Source: Thermomucor indicae-seudaticae
Lineage: Eukaryota; Mucoromycota; Mucoromycetes; Mucorales; Lichtheimiaceae
Length of the DNA: 64,000 bases
Direction of reading: 5' to 3'
Assembly (NCBI GenBank): GCA_000787465.1
Contig: JSYX01000124.1
Location: 1 to 64,000 of the forward strand
The position numbers were made by a program, and so were the translations under genes. The notes beneath the pieces were generated by a model. That model ran no database searches. It was not told the DNA's origin and was given only the letters and a program-made list of their open reading frames with translations. Position 1 is the first letter of the stretch. Each line of letters begins with the position of its first letter. Below are positions 1,052 through 55,681 of this stretch, one piece after another.

Positions 1052-2275
1052 CTAAACATGTCGAAAGTGGGCGATGACAGGCGCACGCTCGCAGAAGACA
1101 CGCAAACATTGACCGTTAACTCGCATTTTGAGCAATCTTCCGTGAATGTCTGCTAACGGACCGGTACCATTGTTGAATCCTGCGATGACCATATACTGTT
1201 CAGGGTGATAATGTATGTCCAACTTTCCAGAGCGCTTGCGCTTGACACCCAAACCAATTGGCCAGGGCTGGAATTCGACTGTCGAGCTTTCTCCTGGGAT
1301 CGAGATACCAGGCAGACCGGCATGTTCTGTCACCAACCCTTTCCTTTGGGTCGCATCGGTGGCCGCGATATTCCTGGATTGTAATTTCATAAATCGCTCA
1401 AAACCAACTTTTTTGCCACGAGCCTCCAGTACGTCACGGTCGTGGTGTCGAGGTGTCTGTCTAAAGAGTAACTCGTACGGGGATATCCCCAATTTCTCAA
1501 GCGCTTTTGTTCGATAGGCGTAGAGGACCGAGGGAAGGTACAGATCCCAGCTCGAAGGATGTTCTCTAGTCATTTTCTTCAGCGTCTTCACTATCGTTCC
1601 GTAAAGGCTTTCCACCATGCCATTAGCTTGCGGGTGGTACGGTGATGTGTACCGATGGTGTGTATTCACGCGCTCGATGAACTGGTCCAATCATTCCGCA
1701 ACCAAATGCGATCCATTGCCCGTTAGCAGATGCGTCGGTGGTTCAAAGACGCAGAATATGTGTTCGTACAAAAAGGGGGCCACCGTGTCAGCATCTGCCT
1801 CGACAACTGTTTGCGCTACGGGCCAACGTCTAAAATGCTCAACTGCCACTAGCATATATCGCTTTCCAGTATTCGACGGTGGATTGATCGGGCCCACAAA
1901 GTCAAGGGCAAATTGTTCAAATAAGTGCGAAGCCGGTACATTATGAGGTGCTGATTTTGGTGAAATATCAGAGAATAGTTGGCATTCACGACAAGTTCCA
2001 ATATAAGCCTTCATTTCTTCGTAGGGACGAGGCCATCAATAATATGCATATAGTATAGCCCACGTGGCATGGATTCTGAAGTGCCCATGGCCGTCGTGCA
2101 CTTCCTCGAGAGCCTTCTGTCTTTCTTGACCCATATGCAGTACCTTCACCATTCGGTTACCAATTATGTGGTAAAGATGGTTCCCACGGAGACGAAACCT
2201 GGCAGCCTTGGACTTGATTTCACAACCAACGTTCTGATTCTCAGGATTTTCCAGGTAATCAAAGATGTGCTGCAA
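1052..2275 (-). pseudogene. Ty3/gypsy integrase (broken, altered catalytic residue)
   Basis: Three pieces separated by stops: an H2C2-type zinc-binding region (2275-2036, with HDGHGHFRIHATW; its Cys pair, CRECQ, lies in the next piece), an integrase core start (2014-1691, with ALDFVGPI holding the first Asp), and the core end plus C-terminal part (1690-1052, with YHPQANGMVES holding the Glu). At the second catalytic Asp, usually in a TDNGSHF-type motif, this copy reads TGNGSH: a GGC codon where GAC is expected. With the stops, this makes the integrase inactive. The remainder down to about 1052 resembles the basic, chromatin-binding C-terminal part of such integrases. Confidence 0.9.
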
Positions 2276-3743
2276 AGGCTTCTCATAGTACGATTCGCCT
2301 GTAAGGAAATGGTCTTAAAGACCTTCAAGATCGTCTTCATCATCCGATTCGTTTTTCTGCTCCGGACGTGGATACCTGGAAAGTGCATCGGCTACACAGT
2401 TCTGTTTGCCCGTTTTGTGTTTCACTCGGAACCTAATTCCTGTGTTGCCAGGACCCATCGCTGCAACCGCATGTTTGGATCACTCTTGGAAAAGATAGCG
2501 CACAGCAGAATTATCAGTGTACAAGACAAATTCCTTATCCGGTAAGTATTTGCGAAGTTTCTTCAATGCATACATGACCGCCAGGAGCCCCTTTCACACA
2601 GTAGGGTAACGCATTACTGCAGGTTGCAATTTTCGCGAAAGGAAACATATCGGTCGCTCATCTTCATTCGTCTTCTGTGTAAGGACAGCCCCAATGCCTA
2701 TTTCCGATGGGTCCGTATACACAGAATATGTCAAGTTTGGGTCAGGGAAAGCCAGTATTGCGCAATTTGCCAATGCTTCCTTGAGTTGGTTAAATGAGCG
2801 CTCCTCAATATCCGTCCAGATAAATGGTTTTGACTTGCTCGTGAGTGCTGACAAAGGTGCCGAGATTTCTGAGAATAACTGCACATGACGCCTGTAGAAC
2901 CCAGCAAGCCCCAGAAACGCACGAACTGCAGTGGCATTCATATGCCTTGGGAAACTCTTTATCTTCTCTATACGGCTTTCCATGGGTTTGATACCGTCCG
3001 ACGAAATGACGAAGCCCAAGAAAGTGATTGAATCCTTGACCAAATCGCATATAAGAGAATTCAATTTCATATTAACCGCGCCCAGGCGTTCGAAGACTTG
3101 GCGAAGGTGGTCAAAATGGCTTGGTAAGTCCTTAGAATAGACAGTGATATCGTCTATGTAAGCAACAGCGAACTTTCCCAAGAAAGGGTCCATGGCCATG
3201 CTAATTGCACGTGAATGTACTGGGTCCATTTTGAATACCGAATGGCATAACACGGTAGGAGTAGCTACCGAAAGGTGTTGCAATGGTAAGCTTGGGGATA
3301 GATTCTTTTTCAACGGCGATTTGATGGAACCCTTTTAATAAGTCCAGTGTGGAGTATGCACGAGCACCACCGAGCTTTTCAATCAGATCCGTTATATTAT
3401 CAGGCGGCCGAGGGTCTCGGACAGTGACCTTGTTGAGATCCTGGAATTGAGTGACGAGGCGTCGTTCGCCATTTTTCTTCTGAACGTAGCGACAAGGAAA
3501 ACTCCATCCTCGATGCCAGGCGTTGGTCTTATCGTGTGTGGCAGGAATCAGAACACCATTATCAACCATGGTTGTCAATTCTTCCTTAAGATACTTCAGT
3601 TCCGCATGGGACAGGTGCGGGTTCGGACGGCGATAGACAGGCCGCGCGTCACCAGTGTCAATGTGCAGTGTAACTAGGTTCGTCTGAGACAAATGGGAAT
3701 ACGATGAACCAAAGACGTCCTTGTTCTTCGAAACCAAGTTCAC
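2276..3743 (-). pseudogene. Ty3/gypsy reverse transcriptase and RNase H (broken)
   Basis: The first fragment (3743-3201) carries RT palm segments: PVYRRP-like, RLVTQFQDLNKVT, YSTLDLLKGFHQI and FGIQNGPSTF. After a frameshift the second fragment (3313-2594) carries the catalytic YIDD box (AYIDDITVYSK), the LGFVIS thumb region and the connection (FLGLAGFYRR, PLSALT), then VYTDPSEIGIGAVL of RNase H. Downstream, two in-frame stops interrupt the rest of RNase H (a YTDNSAV segment is still readable). The RT active-site aspartates persist although the frame is lost, indicating fairly recent decay. Confidence 0.93.
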
Positions 3744-4270
3744 TATGCTATCTTTTCATCGTCTAACAAAACGGGGTGATCTTGCACACGCTCGCGAAGA
3801 TCTCCCAAGCGATTGCCTTGAGTCTTTGGGTCAATGCTGTCATTGGTGGGATTCGGCACTTCCTCATCATCGGGAGTCGTCAAAAGCAGGAATGCATCTT
3901 CGACGTCTGATTCAACATTTTCGGTTTCTTGTTCGTCATGGTCTTTGGCATCGCGGTTCATGTGCTTCTTGCTGGGTAGAGCCGTATACCGGACATCAAG
4001 AGGCATTATACCATGCGCGGTACAAATCCACCAAAAATGACATTGCCAATCAGTCCCGATATGCATCTCAGGAAAGCAACACGGCCAATAATCAAATCGT
4101 AGTTGAAAAACATCCAAACAGACAGCGGACATTTTATAGGATTCAGATAGAACAATCCGTATAGAGAGACCAGTAGCGAGACCGACTGGATTAACCGTAC
4201 GGCTATCTCCAAGTTGCAGTGGCTTTTCCAATGGTTCACGATACGTGATACCCAACCGCTTGATTGGCAA
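3743..4270 (-). pseudogene. Retrotransposon aspartic protease and linker (broken)
   Basis: The upstream part of pol. The N-terminal half, before about 4080, resembles a retropepsin-type segment (a stretch ending in a DLIIGR-like motif typical of the protease C-terminus), but continuing the protease past that point requires a frame change. The distal part is acidic linker of the kind found before the RT domain. The call rests on position directly upstream of the RT and on the DLIIGR motif; the catalytic DTG/DSG is not visible in this fragment, so the family call is supported mainly by context. Confidence 0.55.
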
Positions 4271-16890: not shown

Positions 16891-17034
16891 TTAAAAGTTT
16901 CCAGACGACTTCCAGACTGTGGATTCGACATGTGTGTGTAAGTCATAATGATGAAAAGGTGATGATTATTATTGGGCCTTACTTTGGTCACAGATATAAT
17001 CAGCAGAGCACTTTTCGAAGGCGTGAATGTACAT
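16891..17034 (-). CDS. Arginine attenuator peptide uORF of CPA1, split by an intron
   Basis: A 25-codon upstream ORF in the CPA1 leader. Exon 1 is 17034-16983 and exon 2 is 16916-16891; the intron 16982-16917 (66 nt) has GTAAGG, a CTTAC branch and CCACAG. Spliced, the C-terminal half reads CSADYICDQIWKSS, matching the core of the known fungal arginine attenuator peptide (S. cerevisiae CQDYISDHIWKTSS; N. crassa QDYLSDHLW). The Asp-Tyr and Ile/Leu-x-Asp-x-(Ile/Leu)-Trp pattern and total length (24-25 aa) agree. In other fungi the nascent peptide stalls ribosomes at the uORF stop when arginine is high and lowers CPA1/arg-2 expression. The uORF ATG has a poor context (T at -3), as expected for leaky scanning. 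The match is direct; function here is inferred. Confidence 0.85.
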
Positions 17035-18249
17035 AGACGAGCGGGCACAAGGGTCTAAAGAAACTCGGTTTGTTCAAGGAAAAAACCGCTTTACTTCAAG
17101 AATGAACAAGATAACAAAGAACGAAAAAGATATCGGAATGGATCGCGCAAACGAAAAAAAATATCAAATTGCGCGAGACCAGTCACAAAGATGATTCACT
17201 TGCAGCCAATCAAACTTGCCGCTCAATGACAGCCGAATGCAGTCGTTCATCTCAGGAACTGGTTCCGAAGGCCATCTTTGAGGCCAGTCAACTCGTTCCG
17301 AAAAGTTATACGGCTCTGTAACCAGAAAACAGCAAGTTCCTTTAATGACAACAACGCCGCAAATATTTTACAATTGCTTAATTGGTCTGTGTCCAGCTAA
17401 AGTTGTCAGACAACTGCAGGGGTGAGCCAAAGCCATTAATGCACCACGAAAACGTGGCTCTGATCCCGTATGCGACCGGCTTGATAATTGTGATTTCTGC
17501 ATCATGTCGTTGATCCGTTACAGTAATAAAGCTACTGGATATCATGGAGTTCTACAGTACCACTGAATATATGCAGCAGCTAATCAATCAATGACTCAAC
17601 GTTCATGAAGCAGTTGCTTGCTCCGCTGTTAGACATGAATGTGCACATGCCCGTTTATTGTGTCATATTGAAAGAGCCATTGCCATTGTTCATCACACAA
17701 AATAACCAAACGTTCAGTGTAAGAACATGCGTTAGGTCATTTCCATGGTCCTTGACGCAACCGAGATCCACAGAAGAGGACGCTTAATCTGCAATTCAAT
17801 AAAACTTTGTTGCGGCTGTAAAACTCGAGTCGTCAGGTTTCACCCGACATGGATTGCTTCACGGTTACACCAATAAGCTAAGTGTCATTCTGAGTTCACC
17901 AGACTTGTGGCAAATATTAAGGCTTTCTGTCATTGACGACGGGGGATCTATAACGATGTCCGTTGCAGTAAGGCACGCAGAACGCCTTGTGCAATGAAAT
18001 GGACAAAATAAAAAGGAAATATGTAATCAGAGCTTAGCGGAATTGACGTTTCCAGGGGAAGGAACGGTTATTCTGCTAGTTAATCATCCATTGCTGGCAG
18101 CAAAAGCATGTGGTGACGATGGGGACGATAAAGAGCTATAAAATGGCCCGCACCCGAATCTCATTTTTATCTCTTCATTGTACATACCTTTTCCTCTTTT
18201 TTCTCTCTGTCTTCAGAGCTGGTTATCTCTCTCTCTCTCTCGCCAACCC
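17035..18249. other. Divergent intergenic region, CPA1 and PL14 promoters
   Basis: The stretch separates minus-strand CPA1 from the plus-strand lyase. TGACTCA (Gcn4/AP-1 type) lies at 17592-17598, about 560 bp upstream of the CPA1 uORF. TATAAAA at 18137-18143 lies about 110 bp before the lyase ATG, followed by a CT-rich leader (TCTCTCTCTCTCTC) just upstream of the ATG. A 60-codon open frame at 17605-17787 shows no family resemblance and is not called. Confidence 0.6.
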
Positions 18250-25575: not shown

Positions 25576-27814
25576 ATGATCACTTCCGCCACACGAATCA
25601 TCCAGTCAAGGCAACTCTTTAGTCGAGCAGCGGCCTTGAACCGCCAGCGAGCAACGACAGCATGCATGATCCATACATCTCGCAAATCCAAGAGTAGTGC
25701 TGCTGCTACACAGTACGTTTGGTGACACTATCCATTGCGATGATTTGGGATTGAAAGGACTGACCCATTGTCACTACTAGCGTGGCACCTAATCCGTCAG
25801 AACGTACAGCTGTCCAAACGAACAAGCCTCTCCGCAAGCCTCAACCCCTCAAGTACAAAAAGTCAACCAATGCCATTGAAATGGACGATTCGTTTGTTGG
25901 CATGTCAGGTGGAGAGATCTTTCACGAAATGATGCTGCGACATAACGTGAAGCATGTGTTTGGTTATCCCGGCGGTGCCATCCTTCCTGTCTTTGATGCC
26001 ATCTACGAATCAAAATACTTTGACTTTATCCTACCGAGACATGAACAGGGTGCTGGCCACATGGCTGAAGGTTACGCACGAGCCACGTAACTATCTCCCT
26101 CCTTCTCTATTTCTATGATATATTGTATAATCTAATTCGTGTGTCTCCTTGACAGTGGTAAACCTGGTGTGGTGCTTGTGACTTCTGGACCTGGCGCAAC
26201 CAACGTTGTTACTGCCATGGCAGATGCCTTGGCTGACGGTACCCCCTTGATTGTATTTACCGGCCAGGTACCGACGACGGCCATCGGCACGGACGCCTTC
26301 CAAGAAGCTGACGTGGTCGGTATCTCTCGCGGATGCACCAAGTGGAACGTCATGGTGAAAGACATTACCGAACTGCCCCGACGCATCAACGAAGCCTTCA
26401 CGATTGCCACGAGCGGCCGCCCCGGTCCTGTCCTGGTCGACTTGCCAAAGGATGTCACCGCTGGTATTCTGCGACGCCCGATTCCGATGCACTCTGTGAT
26501 CCCCTCCCGACCCGCCGCCATTCCGAACACCGCCCTCGGCGCTTTCACCCAAGAAGTCATTGCCGCCGCACAAAAGGAACCCCTCCTGCTCCGCTCTGCC
26601 GAACTCATCAACAACGCCAAACGGCCCGTCATCTATGCTGGTCAAGGTGTCCTGAGCCATCCAGACGGTCACAAGGTCCTGCGCGAGCTCGCCAACCTCG
26701 GTAACATCCCCGTCACAACCACCCTCTGCGGCCTCGGCGCCTTTGACGAAATGGACCCCAAGTCGCTCCACATGCTCGGCATGCACGGCTCTTGCTACGC
26801 CAACCTCGCGATGCAGCACGCCGACTTGATCATTGCCCTCGGTGCCCGCTTCGACGACCGTGTCACAGGCAGCGTCAAGGCCTTTGCGCCCGAAGCTGTC
26901 AAGGCCGCCCGCGAAGGCCGCGGTGGTATCCTGCACTTTGAAATCATGCCCAAAAACATCAACAAGGTCGTCGAGGCTACGGAGGCCATCGAGGGTGACG
27001 TGACCGAGAACGTACAAAAAATGCTGCCTCACATTAAGCGCGCCGAACGTGCTGAATGGTTCGAACAGCTGAACGCCTGGAAGAAACAGTACCCATTCTA
27101 TTACGAGAAGCCGAAAACCGACAATGACACCCTGAAACCCCAGCAGCTGATCGAGGAACTCGACAGACAGACCCAGGATATCAAGGAGAACGTCATTATC
27201 ACCACCGGCGTCGGTCAGCACCAGATGTGGGCCGCTCAGCTCTACCGATGGAGATATCCGCGTACCTTTATCACTTCGGGCGGTCTGGGCACCATGGGCT
27301 TTGGTCTCCCAAGTGCCATTGGTGCCAAGGTGGCACGACCAGACAAGATTGTCATTGACATTGACGGTGATGCATCCTTTTCCATGACTGGTAAGCTTGA
27401 ATAAGGAAGGAGGATTTGTGAAACCTTTAATAATAACAACAACACTCTGTAGCTATGGAACTGGCCACGGCAGCAGAGTTCAAGATCGGCGTCAAGGTGC
27501 TTTTGCTAAACAACTCGTTCCAGGGTATGGTCAAGCAGTGGCAAGATCTGTTCTATGAAGAGCGGTATTCTGGCACCGTCATGAAGAACCCTGATTTCTG
27601 TAAACTGGCCGAAGCCATGGGCGTCAAGGCAATCCGTGTCACCAAGACTTCTGAGATACCAGAAAAGATGGCAGAATTCCTGGCCCACGACGGTCCTGTG
27701 CTCATGGACGCCGTTGTATGCAAACATGAACAACTGTTCCCGATGGTTCCTGCTGGAAAGGCTCTTCATGACTTCATTGTTCATCCTAAACTCAGGTCTC
27801 CATCCAAAAACTAA
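25576..27814 (+). CDS. ILV2: Acetolactate synthase catalytic subunit, mitochondrial
   Basis: Thiamine-diphosphate enzyme that makes acetolactate and acetohydroxybutyrate, first shared step of branched-chain amino-acid synthesis. Four exons (25576-25712, 25781-26086, 26156-27390, 27453-27814), 679 aa (yeast Ilv2 687). The N-terminal 40 residues are Arg/Ser/Ala-rich, a mitochondrial presequence. The catalytic Glu lies in LPRHEQGAGHMAEGYARATG; the ThDP motif starts with DGDASFSMT and ends at LLLNNSFQGMVKQW, spanning the last intron. SGPGATNVVTAMADA and GQVPTTAIGTDAFQE are typical ALS. Exon 3 shows marked C-ending codon bias, suggesting high expression. Divergent partner of ILV5. Confidence 0.97.
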
Positions 27815-54433: not shown

Positions 54434-55681
54434 ATGGCTCGAAAAATCTCCATTGTTTGCCTTCCTGGTGATGGCGTGGGTCCCGAAGTTGTCGGCGAAG
54501 CCGTCAAGGTTCTGAAACTGGTCGCTGCCAAACGTTCGCAGGCCCTGAATGTCGAGTTTGAACTCAAGAATGAGCTCATTGGCCTTGCCGCTATGGAAAA
54601 GACAGGTACGCAGAGGACAAACCCCCTGTTAGGCAGTGTCCGGTTAACGCCAAGAGAAAACAAAAAGGCGAGCCCCTGCCCGATTCCGCTCTCGAGGCAT
54701 GCAAAGCAGCCGACGCGATTCTGTTGGGTGCCGTCGGTGGTCTTCCGGGCGCGCAGATTGGCAGCGGACCGCGTCCGGAGCAAGGTCTCTTGAAGCTTCG
54801 CAAGTCGCTGGATCTCTACGCCAACCTGCGACCGGTGACGTTTGCTTCCGAGACACTCACGGGACTGTCGCCGCTCAAAGACCATGTTGTGCAAGGCGTC
54901 GAGTTTGTCTTTGTGCGTGAATTGGTGGGCGGCATCTACTTTGGTGACCGCAAAGAAGCTGGTGAAGATGGCAAAGGTAATGTAAGAAAGGAATACGGAC
55001 GGGAAAGAGTACGACATTGAAGGTGAATGGGTTTTAGCCTATGATACCCTGCCTTACTCTCGTGAGGAGATTGAACGTGTCACTCGCCTGGCTGCGTTGT
55101 TGGCACTCAAGCAGAACCCAGTGGGTAAGATCCACTCGATCGACAAGGCCAATGTGCTGGCCACGTCGCGTCTGTGGCGCAAGGTCGTGAGCGAGACATT
55201 GGAGCGAGAGTTTCCTCAACTTGAATACGAGCATCACTTGGTCGATTCGGCTGCGATGGCCATGGTGCAGAACCCCAAGAAACTCAACGGTGTCGTGCTG
55301 ACTGAAAACATGTTTGGTGACATTTTGTCGGACGAAGCCTCGGTGATTGTCGGATCATTGGGTCTCCTGCCCTCGGCATCCCTGAACGGTTTACCCGACG
55401 GAAAGAGCAAATGCGTCGGTCTGTACGAGCCTATTCACGGCTCGGCACCGGACATTGCCGGTCAGAATATCGCCAACCCCATTGCCACTATTCTCAGCGT
55501 GGCTATGCTTTTGCGGTACTCGCTCGGCTTTGAACAGGAAGCTCGCGCTGTGGAGGAAGCTGTTCGCCAGGTGCTGGACAGCGGTTTCAGAACACGAGAC
55601 TTGAAGGGCGACAAGTCAACGACTGAAATCGGCGACAAGGTGACCGAAGTGCTTGGCGGTCTTCTGGACAAACTGAATTAA
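54434..55681 (+). CDS. LEU2: 3-isopropylmalate dehydrogenase
   Basis: NAD+-dependent oxidative decarboxylation of 3-isopropylmalate, third step of leucine synthesis. Three exons (54434-54605, 54668-54976, 55038-55681), 374 aa. Segments: [114 protein letters not shown] and [19 protein letters not shown] (cofactor and substrate loop). The second intron acceptor (AAAAAG) lacks a pyrimidine tract, but frame and alignment require it. Belongs to the same pathway as ILV5/ILV2 elsewhere in the window. No TGACTCA site in its 116-bp upstream gap. Confidence 0.97.

Follow-up and report, generated by a model that had tools for sequence, protein, structure and literature searches.

In Dikarya, uORFs that encode arginine attenuator peptides (AAPs) control CPA1 and arg-2. 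The leader of a CPA1 gene on the minus strand of a Thermomucor indicae-seudaticae contig, within the 64-kb stretch of DNA that was analyzed as a whole (hereafter the window), raises the question of whether a fungus of the Mucorales carries such a peptide, and of what an intron dividing its candidate arrest motif would do to arginine control.

Among the papers listed in a literature search, outside which the survey of Hood et al. 2007 fell, none was seen to describe an AAP in Mucoromycota or an intron within an AAP uORF. To judge from its title and from the way PMC7049704 draws on it, that survey covers the AAPs of several fungi; in the sections of the literature consulted, AAPs are mentioned for ascomycetes and for Cryptococcus (PMC7049704 for Cryptococcus).

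The CPA1 gene and its leader

The uORF starts at ATG 17034 and is read on the minus strand. Its first exon (17034–16983, 52 nt) contains codons 1–17 and base 1 of codon 18 and by direct reading encodes D12, Y13, and D16; its second exon (16916–16891, 26 nt, minus strand) provides the remainder of codon 18 (Ile), W19, K20, the residues S, S, G, N, and F, and the stop codon TAA (16893–16891). The spliced uORF has 25 codons, MYIHAFEKCSADYICDQIWKSSGNF, and is followed on the same strand by a gap of 9 nt (16890–16882, ACAACAAAA) and by the CPA1 ATG (16881–16879). After splicing, uORF and CPA1 lie in one frame, separated by the TAA and three codons. Reading the sequence bears out the original prediction of a 25-codon uORF that stops 9 nt short of the CPA1 ATG, and the spliced ORF does contain the D-Y-I-x-D-x-I-W-K-x-S core that removal of a 66-nt intron had been said to create. 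The unspliced peptide had been given as 20 residues, which is wrong: translation yields 21, MYIHAFEKCSADYICDQSKAQ, with the end at 16969.

No ATG was found in the leader sequence between 17250 and 17034 on the minus strand, and the uORF ATG is therefore the first AUG for any transcript that starts within this interval. It has T at both −3 and +4, which makes a weak start under the general Kozak rule, and it scored lowest of five ATGs (−1.52) in an in-genome start-context model that was trained on 38 long-ORF ATGs and is noisy. The CPA1 ATG scored −0.37 in the same model, which is less than the lower quartile of those long-ORF ATGs (−0.03); a strong CPA1 start finds no support in these in-genome statistics. 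CPA1 has two in-frame ATGs, M1 (16881) and M11 (16851), the latter with G at +4, and the main start could be either of them.

The main ORF begins in CPA1 exon 1 (16881–16647, minus strand), which is followed on that strand by a coding intron of 60 nt (16646–16587, GTATGT...CTAG) and, again from reading the sequence, by exon 2 (16586–15604, through the stop codon). Removal of the coding intron gives a CPS small subunit, a stand-alone protein of 405 aa that matches the corresponding NCBIfam model (TIGR01368) over residues 24–382 with 441.5 bits, against a cut-off of 307.35. In fungi, a stand-alone CPS small subunit is the arginine-specific one.

Among the matches listed, the top named relatives of this protein are stand-alone Mucorales proteins of ~385–430 aa (Halteromyces, 77% identity; Apophysomyces, 75 and 77%; Fennellomyces, 77%), whose source labels vary between CPS small subunit and CAD. 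A tree was built from 42 sequences, the present one and 41 chosen among the 120 matches listed, one of which is a fragment 99% identical to our own. CPA1 clusters there with Dichotomocladium, Fennellomyces, Zychaea, Phascolomyces, and one unnamed protein (support 0.991); Dichotomocladium, Zychaea, and Fennellomyces belong to the family Lichtheimiaceae of the Mucorales. This grouping within the Mucorales supports the earlier claim that the host of the AAP-like uORF is an early-diverging fungus. A scan of viral contigs with our own CPA1 found no relative, and one with a fungal alignment found a single relative (53% identity), not recognizable as fungal. In bacterial and archaeal genomes at least 591 stretches matched, at least 570 of them relatives; the 80 that were kept are bacterial by title, and none is recognizably fungal.

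The genome searched (24.8 Mb, 735 contigs) contains the leader sequence once, with no second copy. Two more loci in it resemble the CPS small subunit (C427:15402–16481 and C114:57946–59076, 50–53% identity) and sit in long open reading frames, 797 and 835 aa in length. One of the two is perhaps the pyrimidine CPS fusion, next to which another CPS-like copy was unexpected.

The N-terminus of CPA1 (window 16881–16810) has 24 residues preceding a conserved LKLKTGQ, with no arginine and no acidic residue among them. The CPA1 proteins of Rhizopus, Choanephora, Fennellomyces, Zychaea, and others also have short, arginine-free N-termini, and those of Cunninghamella, Phycomyces, Apophysomyces sp. BC1034, and Umbelopsis have longer, arginine-bearing, presequence-like ones. 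From the short arginine-free N-termini across the tree, which is one of predicted gene models, it follows that the enzyme may have been relocated to the cytosol repeatedly in Mucorales. When annotated CPA1 proteins were searched for any whose N-terminus includes the leader peptide, two candidates shared words with it, but no match reached E 10 or better. The idea that uORF exon 1 is joined to CPA1 and serves it as a targeting peptide was rejected: by reading, the exon-1 peptide has acidic residues and no arginine.

Other features of the window were recorded alongside. A TGACTCA at 17592–17598, ~560 nt upstream of the uORF, is a Gcn4/CPC1-type site; since TGASTCA occurs 8 times in the window against 10.45 expected and thus shows no excess, the site carries no weight. 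ORFs for a putative thiamine-diphosphate enzyme resembling acetolactate synthase (26136–27404, plus strand) and for a putative isopropylmalate/isocitrate dehydrogenase (54986–55681, plus strand) suggest that branched-chain amino-acid genes may share the 64 kb with CPA1. ORFs at 1052–3755 (minus strand) resemble, by eye, an LTR retroelement integrase and reverse transcriptase.

Likeness of the spliced peptide to arginine attenuator peptides

M1, D12, Y13, D16, and W19 are common to the spliced peptide and the AAPs of N. crassa and S. cerevisiae. The N. crassa arg-2 AAP (24 aa, P0121) likewise stands in the leader of an arginine-specific CPS small subunit, is of similar length, and shares the numbering of D12, Y13, D16, and W19 and the basic residue 20 with the present peptide. 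It differs in having Q, S, and H where the present peptide has A11, C15, and Q17, L instead of I14 and I18, and five residues after W19 rather than six; the present uORF has its predicted intron in codon 18. The S. cerevisiae CPA1 uORF (25 aa, P0123) has the same length and the same D-Y-I-x-D-x-I-W-K-x-S core, with a numbering one higher (its D13 is D12 here). To our knowledge, this uORF contains no intron.

An AAP alignment search of a protein database returned seven proteins, all named and all of ascomycete genera; as the search is confined to peptides that have 5-residue words in common with the three inputs, it implies no absence elsewhere. All four positions of D-Y-x-x-D-x-x-W are identical in these seven AAPs and the present peptide, and three other positions invariant in the seven are changed here (Q11 to A, S15 to C, and H17 to Q).

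Against Pfam, the sole match of the spliced peptide was PF08252 (Leader_CPA1), at 14.0 bits and E 0.034; as this is under the cut-off of 18.5, the peptide is not filed under that family. The alignment places its residues 10–22 on profile positions 10–22. Against the same family, the AAP of N. crassa reaches 56.0 bits and that of S. cerevisiae 58.8, and the unspliced peptide matched no Pfam family at all. A search of NCBIfam with the spliced peptide gave no match, and its matches among solved structures, three entries of one unrelated protein (E 0.22–0.37), were discarded. The score below the PF08252 cut-off does not bear on whether the peptide works in the manner of an AAP.

A score under the Pfam cut-off, together with the substitution of Q11, S15, and H17, could also mark the uORF as a degenerate, arginine-blind relic, in which the changes at 11, 15, and 17 weakened or abolished stalling and left a mild constitutive uORF. 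We consider this unlikely: D12, Y13, D16, W19, and a basic residue 20 are retained where a relic would be expected to lose some of them, and the 25-codon ORF has its start, stop, and intron ends all intact.

The weight of the resemblance was gauged by two tests, both of which left the choice of intron free within set bounds and covered the window rather than the whole genome. The first used a relaxed AAP motif, which we composed so as to cover the present peptide, and scanned both strands of the 64-kb window for an ATG combined with a GT-AG intron of 40–200 nt whose donor lies inside the ORF and at most 150 nt from the ATG. It matched once in 96,477 such combinations (43,932 + 52,545), at the present uORF; as the motif had been written to include this uORF, the weight lies in the absence of any second match. 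The second used a profile of the seven database AAPs, from one of which only the last 24 residues were taken, with the present peptide excluded, and ranked the spliced peptide first among 61,937 distinct candidates from the window, with 16.2 bits versus 9.5 for the runner-up.

It is very improbable, in our estimation, that an unrelated short ORF has come to resemble an AAP by chance once a convenient intron was picked. The intron is indeed a choice, the PF08252 match is weak by itself, and an AAP DNA pattern matched once in a viral collection of 2.9 million contigs, inside an ORF of 173 aa, a match judged to be chance. Yet the intron-varying tests across the window yield the present place alone, this place is the leader of the one gene expected to carry an AAP, and the residue numbering is that of the N. 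crassa peptide. We regard the observation in the sequence as reliable and well beyond what chance would yield.

As far as its sequence tells, the spliced peptide is clearly related to the AAPs, though divergent, and can be recognized as such solely after splicing. The claim of an AAP-like uORF in the CPA1 leader is supported by the PF08252 match, the shared residues, the first rank in the profile test, and the CPS small subunit downstream. We hold it to be quite probable that this is the AAP uORF of a Mucorales fungus, its arrest motif cut by an ordinary spliceosomal intron that is probably removed constitutively.

The predicted uORF intron and the expected fate of unspliced RNA

The predicted uORF intron (16982–16917, 66 nt, minus strand) has the 5′ site GTAAGG and the 3′ end CCACAG and lies in phase 1 of codon 18, which it cuts after the first base (A|TC, Ile). 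It divides the arrest motif, with D12, Y13, and D16 in exon 1 and W19 and K20 in exon 2, and because of the cut in codon 18, I18-W19-K20 would be confined to spliced mRNA. A candidate branch site, CTTAC, is found 22 nt before its 3′ end and an in-frame TAATAA close to its 5′ end; a YTRAY branch site has no match in this intron nor in the CPA1 coding intron.

Donor sites were compared in 246,632 bases of the same genome (the window and 20 regions), using candidate sets that are noisy. In this sample, 388 GTAAG sites gave 30 clusters in which the donor joins long open frames (7.7%), versus 12 from 419, 19 from 560, 28 from 721, and 21 from 515 for four control donors (2.9–4.1%). The intron candidates of the joined ORFs have length quartiles of 61, 66, and 83 nt for GTAAG and medians of 76–83 nt for the control donors. 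On account of this enrichment and these quartiles, GTAAG can be considered a true but modest donor signal and 66 nt a typical length.

A second, consensus-filtered set, in which GTRNGN, YAG, and YTRAY were required, comprised 40 clusters with a median of 68 nt (middle half 61–75). These came from 2,693 GTRNGN sites (1.5%), versus 0.66–0.71% in two control donor classes, a donor enrichment that is partly a product of the filter itself; the comparison suggests that about half of the set is noise. A self-trained splice model without this filter accepted 785 of 794 clusters, drifted to noise, and was dropped. In that drifted model, 6,499 of 29,273 random GT-AG pairs (22%) scored at least as high as the uORF intron, and at least 8 of the 53 GT-AG pairs of the leader outranked it. 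The uORF intron is ordinary in appearance, and is predicted rather than proven.

An ORF that exists only upon retention (16946–16821, minus strand) starts within the intron at ATG 16946 (41 aa), has an in-frame ATG at 16931 (36 aa), and overlaps the CPA1 start. ATG 16946 is offset by 65 nt from the CPA1 ATG, that is, by 2 modulo 3, and is out of the CPA1 frame. The original prediction held that unspliced mRNA would probably not stall ribosomes and that splicing could set arginine sensitivity. The first part stands, as I18-W19-K20 are absent from the unspliced RNA and its peptide has no Pfam match. The sense of the proposed switch is not supported, since the intron ATGs 16946 and 16931 open an ORF over the CPA1 start: retention would lower CPA1 output and offer no escape from arginine control. 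On retained RNA, ribosomes would either terminate at 16969, after 21 residues, or move into the overlapping ORF, and few would begin CPA1. The unspliced RNA should thus be off rather than arginine-blind and on. How strong this block would be depends on the start contexts, which the in-genome model ranks poorly. A splicing switch is a fair hypothesis, opposite in sense to the one first proposed.

Such a switch would go beyond constitutive removal of the intron, with retention regulated by growth state or stress diverting ribosomes into the overlapping ORF, atop arginine stalling of the spliced form. A single intron divides the arrest motif and also brings in the ATGs 16946 and 16931 with their ORF over the CPA1 start, and PMC5640933 describes two related couplings: fungal TPP riboswitches link splicing to uORFs, and in the N. 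crassa SAM decarboxylase leader alternative splicing produces forms with and without uORFs. As would hold for the present leader, splicing determines there the presence of uORFs, with no AAP among them; two isoforms were seen by RT-PCR, and the regulation of splicing is left open in that paper (PMC5640933). Nevertheless, ATGs commonly occur in introns by chance, and of the two here 16946 has a weak context score (−1.35) and 16931 does not (0.51), as ranked by the noisy 38-ORF model. Structured RNA in the leader was rejected: the window has no Rfam match at gathering thresholds, and the unspliced leader folds no better than its 200 shuffles (z 0.92), 168 of which equal or surpass it. We regard regulated retention of this kind as doubtful. 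Quite unlikely, too, is a two-layer gate, in which the intron would have been kept in the arrest motif since its splicing builds the arginine sensor and also removes a poison ORF over the CPA1 start, with regulated retention as a third, arginine-independent off state.

We know of no ligand-dependent stalling by the peptide of the 'group 8' small ORF/uORF. This conserved peptide uORF is also cut by introns, at two conserved positions, and differs from the present one in encoding a CHCH-domain peptide and in being a uORF in some lineages only (PMC2075485).

Predicted arginine control and its meaning

In the reading that we prefer, an AAP uORF whose ordinary intron is probably removed constitutively, the uORF ATG, which looks weak, would capture part of the ribosomes scanning the spliced mRNA. 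With ample arginine, the nascent peptide would arrest the ribosome at TAA 16893. From general footprint geometry, a stalled ribosome with this TAA in its A site should reach to about the CPA1 ATG; because the gap is only 9 nt, it would block scanning with its front edge at about the CPA1 start codon. At low arginine, ribosomes would either translate the uORF to its end or bypass it, with leaky scanning as the main route to CPA1. If the intron were kept, there would be no arrest motif, and the intron ATGs would carry ribosomes out of frame across the CPA1 start, so the unspliced RNA would be silent at high and at low arginine. The 9-nt gap, probably too short for reinitiation, would favor leaky scanning; on this point the original prediction is supported by the length of the gap.

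This sequence of events follows what is reported for other AAPs. According to PMC7969011, high arginine makes ribosomes stall at the uORF stop and lowers translation of the main ORF, and AAPs operate with a poor start context via leaky scanning. The same paper states that D13 of S. cerevisiae, the equivalent of D12, is required for the arginine response, which an Asp to Asn change abolishes (PMC7969011). AAP stalling also exposes the mRNA to NMD, according to the same source and, for Cryptococcus, to PMC7049704. CND01050, the CPA1 homolog of Cryptococcus, a basidiomycete, has an AAP-type uORF with strong ribosome occupancy, and the 5-fold increase of its mRNA in the absence of Upf1 suggests NMD; the sections of PMC7049704 consulted do not mention an intron in this uORF. 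Residues 11, 15, and 17 aside, the features needed for the AAP mechanism are present in the Thermomucor leader at the level of sequence.

An exon-by-exon search of the present genome with PF08252 gave no matches, in a setting with no positive control (1 of 14 control genomes matched, below the cut-off). Since that search found none, searches of unspliced genome sequence may miss uORFs of this kind; the spliced peptide, too, is under the cut-off. The intron within the arrest motif offers a clean test of coupling between splicing and nascent-peptide sensing. If the AAP works in Mucorales, this suggests that the arginine sensor would predate the split between Dikarya and Mucoromycota; the AAP would then be a very old regulatory nascent peptide, with convergence or transfer as the alternatives.
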